Positions 40,605 through 43,542 of a DNA stretch of 64,000 nucleotides are shown here, in pieces. The notes under the pieces are model-generated. The model was not told the DNA's origin, did no database searches, and saw nothing but the letters and a program-made list of their open reading frames with translations. A program made the translations under genes and the position numbers. Position 1 is the first letter of the stretch, and the number at the start of each line of letters is the position of its first letter. Source of the DNA: Sinimarinibacterium sp. NLF-5-8 (GTDB lineage Bacteria > Pseudomonadota > Gammaproteobacteria > Nevskiales > Nevskiaceae); assembly GCF_010092425.1 (NCBI RefSeq), contig NZ_CP048030.1:2305501-2369500 (forward strand). Direction: 5' to 3'.

Positions 40605-41864
40605 TCAGTTGCCAAAACGTCGTCCCAGAGAAACCCCTACGGCGTAGGAACCAAAAAAGACATCGGCTTCACCGCCGCCAAAGTCAGCCGGAATCGAACC
40701 CCGGCCACTGACGTGTTCGCGCGGTTGCCACGAGGCATAGCCGCTGGCCTCCCACGCCTGCGAAAACGCATAACTGCCGCCCAGTGTGTAATGCCGCCGC
40801 CCCGCCGATGGCGCCAGCAGATCGAACAAGGTTTCACTGGGACTGATCACGCGGCTGCCGTGGTTGTAGCCTGCACGCAAGGTCAACTGCGGGCTGGCCT
40901 GCCAGATCAGCCCGAGCTTGTAGATCGTCTGGCTGCGCCAGCCAAATCCGGGGCCTTCATCGCTGCCGAGCAAATGCCCTTGCTGCAACTGTGCGATCGG
41001 ATTACCCAGCGCCGCCACCCGCCCAAACAGCAGGCGCTGCGCATCCACCGCAACGGTCAGCGACGAAAACAGCTCATACGCCAGCCCCCCCCCCCAGATC
41101 GCCGGCAAATTGAGCTGCCCCTGGTGTGGCAGCGCCCCGGCATAGTCTTTGAGTTTTTGCATATAGGTTGGCGTGCGCACGGCAATTCCAGCCTTCAGCC
41201 CCGGCGCAATCTGCCCCTGCCAGCCCAGCGACACACTCACCCCCAGCCCGCCCGCCTCGCCCTGGTTGGTGAGCTGTGCAGGCGCTTGCGAAAACCCGGC
41301 AAACGGCTGAATGCCCTTGAGCTCAAAACTGCGATAACTCACATTCAGTCCCAGCCCGAGGCTCTGCCGGGGCGCCACACGCCAAGCCAGCAACCCAGAC
41401 AGCCCCACCTGCATGATGCCGAGTTTGCCGCGCCCTTCCCCACCAAACCGCGCGTATGGATTGTCGCGATATTCGGTGCCCAGACCGGCCGCAAAAAAAG
41501 TCACGCCCGTGCTGAGCTGCGGATTCAGGGGGCGTACCCATGCCGCCTGCGGAATCGGATAATGGCGCTGCACATCCGAATCAAACTGCTGGTCAGCACC
41601 TGCCGCGTTGCCGGTGATGCTGCCGCCGGGATCCACCACGTTCCAGTTCAACCCCAGATCGAGGCGATGCCCCATCAACGCCGCAGCAGCTGGATTTGCG
41701 TTGACCTGATACGCCTCATCGTGCAGGGCGTAGGCGACGCCGCCAGCCCCCAGCGACTTGATGCCATAGCCATGCTCATACGGACCAAAACCAGCCCATG
41801 CGGATGGGCCCAGCCCCACCAGCAGCATCGCCCCAAAGCAAAACCTGCAAAACGTCCCGTGCAT
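40605..41864 (-). CDS. FadL-family outer membrane transporter
   Basis: A 419-residue outer-membrane protein of the OMPP1/FadL/TodX family. A signal peptide ends at SAWA (residue ~23), and the mature N-terminus AGFGPYEHGYGIKSLGAGGVAYA resembles the hatch region that plugs the 14-strand barrel. Strongly alternating strands and a terminal aromatic/asparagine end (GRRFGN) support a barrel. Members import long-chain fatty acids, alkanes or aromatics. CGGAG precedes the ATG. It is divergent from the TrpB-like fusion gene. The string of eight C near 41090 lies in coding sequence and does not break the frame. Confidence 0.85.
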   Translation of the reverse strand: MHGTFCRFCFGAMLLVGLGPSAWAGFGPYEHGYGIKSLGAGGVAYALHDEAYQVNANPAAAALMGHRLDLGLNWNVVDPGGSITGNAAGADQQFDSDVQRHYPIPQAAWVRPLNPQLSTGVTFFAAGLGTEYRDNPYARFGGEGRGKLGIMQVGLSGLLAWRVAPRQSLGLGLNVSYRSFELKGIQPFAGFSQAPAQLTNQGEAGGLGVSVSLGWQGQIAPGLKAGIAVRTPTYMQKLKDYAGALPHQGQLNLPAIWGGGLAYELFSSLTVAVDAQRLLFGRVAALGNPIAQLQQGHLLGSDEGPGFGWRSQTIYKLGLIWQASPQLTLRAGYNHGSRVISPSETLFDLLAPSAGRRHYTLGGSYAFSQAWEASGYASWQPREHVSGRGSIPADFGGGEADVFFGSYAVGVSLGRRFGN

Positions 41865-42075
41865 GAAAAACTCCGATCCATCATTGGATACGCATCGACA
41901 TGGCGCATCACATAGGCACACAAAAATGTTGTGCGACAGTGGCATAACGGCGCGCCGGGCACACCACCCAAAGCCTCGTGCCTGCACCGGAAGCCCCGCA
42001 CAGGCCGCGCAGACTGGCGACCCATGAAGTGGTAACGCAATATGTAGCCCTTAATTTTGTGCAGGGATATCTGTT

Positions 42076-43542
42076 GTGTCGGATTTCAACGAATTGGGCG
42101 CATCTTCGGCAAACGCATTTTTCGAAGATCTGGAAAAACTGCTGGTCAGCGAAATTGCCAAAAAGCCTGATAACAGGGCCTTGCAACTCAAGCTCGCCGA
42201 GCTCTACAGCCAGACCGCGCGGATCACGGATTTTGTCGCCGTTGCGCGGCGCATCCGCGAGCTGGCCGGTCGCCATCCCGAACGCTCGGACGAGTGGCTT
42301 CGGGTGCTCAACATGGGGCGCAGCCTGTGCCCCGACGAGCCACTGTTCACCCTGAACCCCTCCAGCGGCTTTGCCTTTGAAGCGCCCCGGGAAGAACCAC
42401 CACGCCATACGCGCATCGGCGAGGAGCCGCGCTTCAAAAAACCGTTGGAAGAACTGGCGACAGCCTACGATCAGGTGCGCCGCGATCCGCGCTTCATTGC
42501 CGAGCTCGACACCGAAATCATGCAGATCGCCGGAGCACCGTCTGCCCTGCAATGGCTGCAGCGACTGTCCGAACAAGTCGGCGGCGCACAGATTTATGTC
42601 AAACGTGACGACATTGGCACTCGACTGTCACACATCACCAGTGCCGTGGTGGGTCAGGCCTTGCTCGCCAAACGGATGGGCAAGCGCGCCCTGATCAGCT
42701 TCAGCCGCAACGGCCGCAGCGGCGTACTGGTGGCGTCCATCGCCGCGCGCCTGGGGATGAAGGCCACGGTCTACATGAGCGCCGAACAGATCGCCGTACA
42801 GCGCAGCAACGTGTTCCGCATGTGGCTGTGCGGTGCCGACGTTCAGGAAGCCGAATCCGGCGGTCGCATCGGTGGCGATATTCGCAAAGCCGCGTTCGAG
42901 GACTGGGCAGGCCGGGCACAGGACAGCCTGCTGATCATGGGACTGGACGCCGGCCCTCACCCCTATCCGATGCTGACCCTGGAACTGACTTCACTGGTGG
43001 GCCGTGAATGCCGCCGCCAGCTCTACGCGCAAACCCGGCAGGCGCCCGATCTGGTGGTGGCGCGCGGCGGCGAAAATGCCGACGCCATCGGCCTGTTTCC
43101 GGCCTTTCTCCAGGCCGCCAAAACGCGGCTGGTCTGCGTCACCCCGGCGGAGCCGTTCGATTCACCGAGCCCTGACGGCGCCCGAACAGCGCATCAACTG
43201 GACATCCCCGAGCAGCAATCGCTGAGCATCCAGACCCAGCAGCGCGCCACCCAGATCCTCGAAGGCATGGACTATCCACGGGTGGCGCGCGAGCACGCCT
43301 GGCTGCGCGCCACCGGGCGCGTTGAAGACGCCCTGATCGGTGCGGCAGCCGCCAAAAAAGCGATTCGCGACATGAGCCATTTCGAAGGCATCATCCCGGC
43401 TATCGAAACCGCCTACGCCATCGCCTGGGCCTGCCAGACCGCAGCCCGCATGCCGCGCGATCAGACGGTGATGGTTCTGATGGCCGAAAACGTCGATAAA
43501 TACATCTGGGATATTGGCCGTGCGATGGGCATTCCCCTGTAA
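42076..43542 (+). CDS. FimV-like/TrpB-like fusion, probable PLP pseudoenzyme
   Basis: A 488-residue protein. Residues ~15-91 look like FimV helical repeats (LQLKLAELYSQTARITDFVA; EWLRVLNMGRSLCPDEPLF). Residues ~120-488 align with tryptophan synthase beta: IYVKRDD, VVGQALLAKRMGK, NVFRMWLCGADV, AGPHPYP and FEGIIPAIETAYA. The PLP-binding Lys87 of TrpB aligns with Ile187, Glu109 with Phe209, phosphate-loop Ser235 with Glu333 (plus two inserted residues), and Ser377 with Ala470. It therefore cannot form the usual internal aldimine. No trpA lies near. The GTG start has AGGGA upstream. Function is unknown; a scaffold or ligand sensor is possible. Confidence 0.8.
   Translation: MSDFNELGASSANAFFEDLEKLLVSEIAKKPDNRALQLKLAELYSQTARITDFVAVARRIRELAGRHPERSDEWLRVLNMGRSLCPDEPLFTLNPSSGFAFEAPREEPPRHTRIGEEPRFKKPLEELATAYDQVRRDPRFIAELDTEIMQIAGAPSALQWLQRLSEQVGGAQIYVKRDDIGTRLSHITSAVVGQALLAKRMGKRALISFSRNGRSGVLVASIAARLGMKATVYMSAEQIAVQRSNVFRMWLCGADVQEAESGGRIGGDIRKAAFEDWAGRAQDSLLIMGLDAGPHPYPMLTLELTSLVGRECRRQLYAQTRQAPDLVVARGGENADAIGLFPAFLQAAKTRLVCVTPAEPFDSPSPDGARTAHQLDIPEQQSLSIQTQQRATQILEGMDYPRVAREHAWLRATGRVEDALIGAAAAKKAIRDMSHFEGIIPAIETAYAIAWACQTAARMPRDQTVMVLMAENVDKYIWDIGRAMGIPL

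Follow-up and report, generated by a model that had tools for sequence, protein, structure and literature searches.

The window (the whole stretch of 64,000 nucleotides of Sinimarinibacterium sp. NLF-5-8 that was analyzed) encodes a protein that very probably unites a TPR region of the kind found inside FimV with a tryptophan synthase beta (TrpB) domain that has lost its pyridoxal phosphate (PLP) chemistry. TrpB is a textbook PLP enzyme. From comparison of sequences, we estimate about an even chance that this TrpB pseudoenzyme, joined to the FimV internal TPR, serves the FimV/pilus pole system as a non-catalytic binding module. An open literature search found no paper on a FimV/HubP–TrpB fusion.

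The gene and its surroundings

The reading frame (Table 1) is unbroken over 488 residues, as judged from the open reading frame and its translation. A TAA occurs in frame at 42052-42054, 8 codons ahead of the GTG start. Neither a signal peptide nor a membrane helix could fit in the space between, and the protein is thus cytosolic as encoded. Absent from it are a signal peptide, an Ig-like domain, LysM, a membrane helix and the C-terminal FimV domain. Genes on both flanks lie on the opposite strand. A FadL/TodX-type porin gene adjoins at 40605-41987 (PF03349, E = 4.4e-24), and the other flank holds candidates that look like fmt and def when read from their translations. Within the linker, R113 is invariant in alignment A1 (22 rows).

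Table 1. Coordinates of the fusion gene and its parts, numbered within the window.
Feature	Position	Strand	Remarks
AGGG, possible ribosome-binding site	42063..42066	+	9 nt before GTG; by eye
CDS, FimV-TPR/TrpB-like fusion protein	42076..43542	+	488 aa, GTG start, stop 43540-43542
FimV internal-type TPR region, residues 16-92	42121..42351	+	FimV BLAST, profile and profile-profile matches
Linker, residues 93-117	42352..42426	+	Partly low-confidence in model
TrpB-like (fold type II PLP) domain, residues 118-488, without catalytic residues	42427..43539	+	HMM, alignment, Foldseek
I187 codon, place of PLP-binding lysine (Lys87)	42634..42636	+	Alignments
R330 codon (TrpB Cys230)	43063..43065	+	21/21 in clade A
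D336 codon (TrpB Asn236, phosphate loop)	43081..43083	+	21/21 in clade A
R405 codon (invariant Pro in 41 TrpBs)	43288..43290	+	21/21 in clade A, 10/10 other fusions
E471 codon (TrpB Gly378)	43486..43488	+	21/21 in clade A

A TrpB scaffold lacking its catalytic residues

Residues 122-480 match TIGR00263 (trpB) with E = 6.1e-75 and 252.7 bits, which is below the equivalog cut-off of 392.45. The protein also matches Pfam PALP (E = 1.1e-18), and its best match among solved structures in a sequence search is TrpB LBCA-b (5ey5, E = 1.1e-69). The TrpB2-type, TrpB-like enzymes of TIGR01415 and PRK12391, families named PLP-dependent, are distant relatives. Their matches are weak (E = 1e-14 and 4.8e-14) and far below cut-off, at 54.1 versus 518.85 bits and 51.8 versus 366 bits, respectively. 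The non-catalytic TrpB motifs LAKRMGK, NVFRM, GPHPYP and EGIIPA are retained.

Columns of Salmonella TrpB were assigned from HMMER and MAFFT alignments, and TrpB residues are given in Salmonella numbering (K87, E109, Q114, S235, E350, S377 etc.). The preliminary description of this DNA, made from the letters alone, proposed that a TrpB scaffold of ~370 residues had lost its PLP lysine. The extent of the TIGR00263 match and the residue I187 agree with this. In the assigned columns Lys87 is I187, Glu109 is F209 and Ser377 is A470, all as described there. The placing of Ser235 at E333 with a two-residue insertion did not stand, since HMMER pairs GGGSN with G332-E333-N334-A335-D336, so that Ser235 is A335 and the insertion is unneeded. 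The phosphate loop G232-G233-G234-S235-N236 is lost under either alignment. Gln114 has become R214 and Gly378 has become E471, while His86 (H186) and Glu350 (E437) are retained, the latter throughout the 21-member clade that contains the window protein (clade A).

Loss of the lysine, which had been suggested as something to follow across orthologues, is general. In alignment A2 (72 rows, comprising 41 canonical TrpBs and 31 fusions), lysine occupies the Lys87 column in 41/41 canonical TrpBs and 0/31 fusions. Among the 30 relatives of the window protein, K87 is found in none (three are gapped there), E109 in none, S235 in one and S377 in seven; the lysine, E109 and S235 are retained in 12/12 canonical TrpBs of the order in the same alignment. 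Three relatives carry unconserved lysines off the column, one column earlier in L041 and L042 and seven columns earlier in L045. On this basis, the TrpB half should not run PLP chemistry.

The N-terminus is of FimV internal-TPR type

The resemblance of the N-terminus to FimV, also proposed in the preliminary description, is confirmed by several kinds of comparison. Searched against its own genome, the protein has a single match outside TrpB, namely FimV (residues 11-96, E = 4.6e-6). A profile of the internal TPR from 12 canonical FimVs of the order matches residues 16-92 with E = 1.5e-13 (search space 30). A profile-profile comparison by hhalign, with 14 fusion TPRs against 12 FimV TPRs, returned a probability of 99.2% and E = 1.1e-19, and both sets share the stretch W..I..MGR.L.P...LF. 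Finally, six relatives carry a FimV N-terminal domain ahead of the TPR (see below).

The matched part is the internal TPR of FimV rather than its C-terminal ‘FimV domain’. That C-terminal domain (TIGR03504) is not among the matches of the window protein with E up to 1, and was not reported in the nine relatives scanned with E up to 0.01. Pseudomonas FimV is described as having a second, internal TPR besides its C-terminal FimV domain, and HubP as being without it (PMC12918733).

The internal-TPR profile matches 27/30 relatives with E < 1e-5. The signal is weak in L042 (E = 0.0082) and L041 (E = 0.027), values close to the lowest obtained from 600 shuffles (0.025). L038 gives no match, its TPR being in a different frame. 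FimV and fusion TPR profiles also match other TPR proteins in the PDB.

Predicted structure

An AlphaFold2 model computed with 72 rows has a mean pLDDT of 86.5 and a pTM of 0.73; a first model with 22 rows behaved similarly. Blocks of the model from residue 21 to 90 average above 90 in pLDDT, and residues 1-9, 95-106, 263-266 and 365-381 fall below 50. Helices are predicted in the TPR part at 3-29, 34-46, 50-64 and 72-84.

All 50 Foldseek matches listed are tryptophan synthase beta, the best with E = 1.3e-28. Superposition on TrpB, an earlier suggestion, thus recovered the TrpB fold, but the overlay is only moderate (TM-score on the target 0.57-0.69, rmsd 6.3-8.9 Å, for the matches listed), which indicates that sub-domain placement differs or is poorly predicted. 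Identity to TrpB (TIGR00263; PDB 6ami, 5t6m, 1x1q) is 32-35% over 371-397 columns among those matches, and likeness extends over the whole fold. No FimV structure is among the 50 Foldseek matches listed, and none was found by name in PDB sequence searches.

Fusions in the order and their architectures

A homologue search keeping only proteins with both regions, as had been proposed, was run with profile A1 on 85 genomes of the order, and a locus was counted as a fusion when its match began at query position 16 or earlier. It yielded 30 unbroken fusion loci, the window's included, in 25 genomes. A 31st fusion, L038 (G023:C55), is frame-broken in a draft genome, with the TPR and the TrpB-like part in different frames; the break may be real or an assembly error. 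Fusions are spread over 11 of the 21 genus codes and 4 of the 6 family codes of the order.

The architectures fall into three forms. A FimV N-terminal domain is present in 6/30 relatives (L043, L044, L046, L048, L049 and L121; profile of FimVs of the order, E = 3.1e-11 or better). Four of these six were run against Pfam; in L043, L046 and L049 a single chain scores over cut-off for FimV_N as well as PALP, and L048 does so for FimV_N only. LysM was found in two relatives (L048 and L049), and NCBIfam FimV_core in L048 is just below its cut-off. The most hydrophobic segment ahead of the TPR is an internal helix in L043, L044, L046 and L048 and lies near the N-terminus, resembling a signal peptide, in L049 and L121. 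A second form (L040, L045 and L047) has a strong hydrophobic helix at the start and no FimV domain. The remaining fusions, including that of the window, have neither; note that the hydrophobicity scan had no input for proteins with under 19 residues ahead of the TPR. One genome, G021, has two of the forms, the FimV-bearing L046 (G021:C20) and the cytosolic L031.

Two profile searches covered 369 genomes sampled from the class, with at least four from the same order among them, and gave no second fusion among the matches listed. With the profile of the N-terminal half, the window protein scored 307.8 bits and the next match listed 176.6 bits. That second match begins at query position 72 and crosses a stop, and we take it for a canonical TrpB.

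Selection and a probably rebuilt site

Values of dN/dS were 0.058-0.460 in all 23 pairs of relatives sharing more than 62% identity. Note that these pairs have members in common, that the window protein, 60% identical to its nearest relative, is not among them and that dS ranges up to 1.12. Some fusion members evolve fast, with end branches of up to 3.3 in the tree.

Among the 166 TrpB-invariant columns of A2, clade A retains 25 throughout and abandons 41. Four columns with full coverage have switched to a new fixed residue, in each case a charged one: C to R330, N to D336, P to R405 and G to E471 (each 21/21). A fifth switched column was dropped because it was based on one sequence. The arginine at 405 is also found in all ten fusions outside clade A. 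Three of the four residues (R330, D336 and E471) are at TrpB positions that, by their numbering, we presume to lie around the PLP. The fixed charged residues are the strongest sign that the site has been rebuilt and is not rotting, and together with dN/dS below 1 they point to a new function rather than to decay.

Probable origin at the fimV-trpB locus

The order of genes in the window's own genome is fimV, membrane protein, truA, trpF, trpB, trpA, accD, folC, where names besides fimV and trpB were read from translations by eye. Between fimV and truA lies a hydrophobic-looking protein of 220 aa (L051:6123-6785, minus strand). The statement in the preliminary description that fimV lies near truA-trpF-trpB therefore holds in this genome, and it extends to the order. 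FimV_Cterm was found in 76/85 genomes, 73 of which also have a listed trpB; one of these (G443) was counted through a lower-scoring trpB that is possibly a non-canonical copy. In all 67 genomes that have both on one contig, fimV precedes trpB in the same orientation, 1.5-4.3 kb away (spacing of matches 1484-4303 bp, median 1608). In the other six they are on different contigs. This arrangement makes a fimV-trpB fusion the natural origin.

Fusion genes are now found away from that locus; where one shares a contig with trpB, the shortest distances between them are 63 kb (G037) and 95 kb (G009). The earlier idea of fusion at the fimV-trpB locus followed by relocation is borne out in part, in that a fusion origin fits the locus order in 67/67 genomes and the gene now resides elsewhere. 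In a tree of the TrpB domain, the 31 fusions lie on one side of a branch with support of 100/99 and in 100% of 200 bootstrap trees, although end branches are long and the bootstrap had not settled. The order's own TrpBs do not enclose the fusions, and the tree therefore does not single out the exact parent copy. The FimV-bearing state changes three times on it. The tree is compatible with a course in which the C-terminus of FimV was replaced by TrpB and the envelope part was lost later, a direction that we infer.

The events can be arranged as follows. In an ancestor within the order, a copy of fimV-truA-trpF-trpB would have lost truA-trpF, a step that we regard as strongly supported; trpB would thereby have come to follow the cytoplasmic portion of fimV, taking the place of the C-terminal TPR of FimV. 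The TrpB half then lost the PLP lysine and Glu109, neither of which is present in any member examined, and nearly all members lack the phosphate loop as well. The relatives are under purifying selection, and new charged residues have become fixed in the former PLP site or close to it. Forms with the FimV N-terminal domain would have given rise to membrane-anchored forms and these to cytosolic forms like that of the window. The dead TrpB fold would now be a module that binds either a partner protein or some small, charged ligand, and the TPR may let the protein join or compete with FimV-dependent complexes, e.g. the type IV pilus machinery, whose marker is present throughout the order's genomes.

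Genomic context

Neighboring genes recur only in subgroups and indicate no pathway. Twelve proteins of the window (37.9-48.8 kb) were compared by BLAST with 26 loci, ~6 kb each side, and only the fusion gene and TrpB relatives were recovered; no neighbor from the window recurs beside the gene in those loci. A PEP synthase-type gene lies directly upstream of the fusion in L036, L038 and L039, from three genera (Pfam was run on L039 only). Within the genus, the fusion has beside it a radical SAM gene, assigned with Pfam in L033 only, and also carA/carB, identified by eye. A PAS-GGDEF-EAL gene (L031:2439-5423, plus strand) ends ~43 nt before the start of L031, the nearest orthologue, which has the same orientation. 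The neighbors of L031, L046 and L036/L038/L039 are none of them general across fusions. Since the context is not general, a polar or pilus role is argued from the FimV parts and not from context.

The pilus marker PilQ was matched in 85/85 genomes (over cut-off in 84/85) and, being universal in the order, does not discriminate among roles for the fusion. A flagellar link was considered because L046 lies within 4 kb of fliG. It was rejected as a rule: FliG was found in 62/85 genomes, and among the 26 fusion-bearing genomes fliG was not matched in six (G023, G025, G031, G033, G428 and G437), several of which are drafts.

Alternative readings and possible role

The reading as a non-catalytic binding module has a narrower form, in which the rebuilt pocket binds a small charged metabolite (amino acid, nucleotide or polyphosphate) and signals via the TPR to the FimV system. 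The four charged residues fixed in 21/21 members and E437 kept in all of clade A favor such a sensor, as does the PAS-GGDEF-EAL gene preceding L031. However, the balanced set R, D, R, E could just fill the cavity with salt bridges and the GGDEF-EAL neighbor is unconserved, so that we consider a sensor possible without expecting it. The protein might instead be an allosteric partner of tryptophan synthase that docks on TrpA or pairs with TrpB and alters the output of indole or tryptophan. There is a precedent in eudicots, where a TrpB pseudoenzyme (TSB-like) activates TrpA (PMC12727527); it resembles the fusion in that a TrpB lost catalysis and retained its fold for a new role. The window's own genome has trpF, trpB and trpA. 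TSB-like is described there as retaining its interaction with TrpA (PMC12727527), whereas the fusion has a FimV TPR attached and is unlinked to the trp locus.

The surface that would contact TrpA is poorly kept. The TrpB residue occurs in 1/30 fusions at the K167 column and in 4/30 at the R175 column, and the window protein has G267 and E275 there; we take K167 and R175 to be TrpA contacts in the Salmonella complex. Segment 258-277, which contains these two columns, retains 0.25 of the TrpB-invariant residues in clade A, versus 0.82 for 158-177, and only 358-377, 378-397 and 478-488 retain less. With these presumed TrpA contacts mostly lost, a TrpA activator becomes less likely, and we judge this reading improbable. 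That the gene is a decaying duplicate on its way to a pseudogene could be argued from its patchy presence (an unbroken copy in 25/85 genomes), the frame-broken copy in G023 and the fast-evolving members. Against this are the dN/dS values of 0.06-0.46 in 23 pairs, 29 relatives with unbroken frames and the residues newly fixed in 21/21, and we consider decay very unlikely. An active enzyme of a new type, with PLP bound in the absence of the lysine or with another cofactor, would account for a fold retained over ~370 residues and for purifying selection among the relatives. It would have to do so after the joint loss of the lysine, Glu109 and the phosphate loop, with no aligned lysine in any fusion and the off-column lysines of L041, L042 and L045 unconserved; such an enzyme seems to us highly improbable.

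Returning to the non-catalytic binding module, the window protein departs from both of its parent families. It differs from TrpB in falling below the TIGR00263 cut-off, in the loss of the PLP lysine, of Glu109, of the phosphate loop and of most presumed TrpA contacts, and in the added FimV TPR. It is like FimV/HubP (TIGR03504, TIGR03505, PF25800) in its internal-type TPR and through the six relatives with a FimV N-terminal domain, and unlike them in its TrpB-like C-terminus and in having no periplasmic region with LysM and no membrane helix. Tentatively, the fusions may constitute a new class of polar hub, in which a dead TrpB has taken the place of FimV's client-binding C-terminus and either detects a charged metabolite or retains a client at the pole. 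Such a hub would couple metabolism to pilus or c-di-GMP behavior, with the cytosolic descendants serving as soluble adaptors. If the binding-module reading is correct, a bacterial lineage captured an operon neighbor and repurposed it, making TrpB a fixed non-catalytic module on a cell-pole organizer. Apparent intermediate architectures (FimV N-terminus retained, membrane-anchored and cytosolic) are still alive. The fusion would also provide a handle on the poorly understood cytoplasmic part of FimV, because it ties one FimV TPR to a separable module.

Additional TrpB-type genes

A second trpB copy in the window's own genome (L003 and L004, C1:85429-86555, minus strand) is split over two frames near the C-terminus and retains the lysine, the glutamate and the GGGSN loop. 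A scan of genome contigs with window-specific peptides returned six distant TrpB-type relatives. Unbroken additional TrpB-type copies are also present in G020 and G052.
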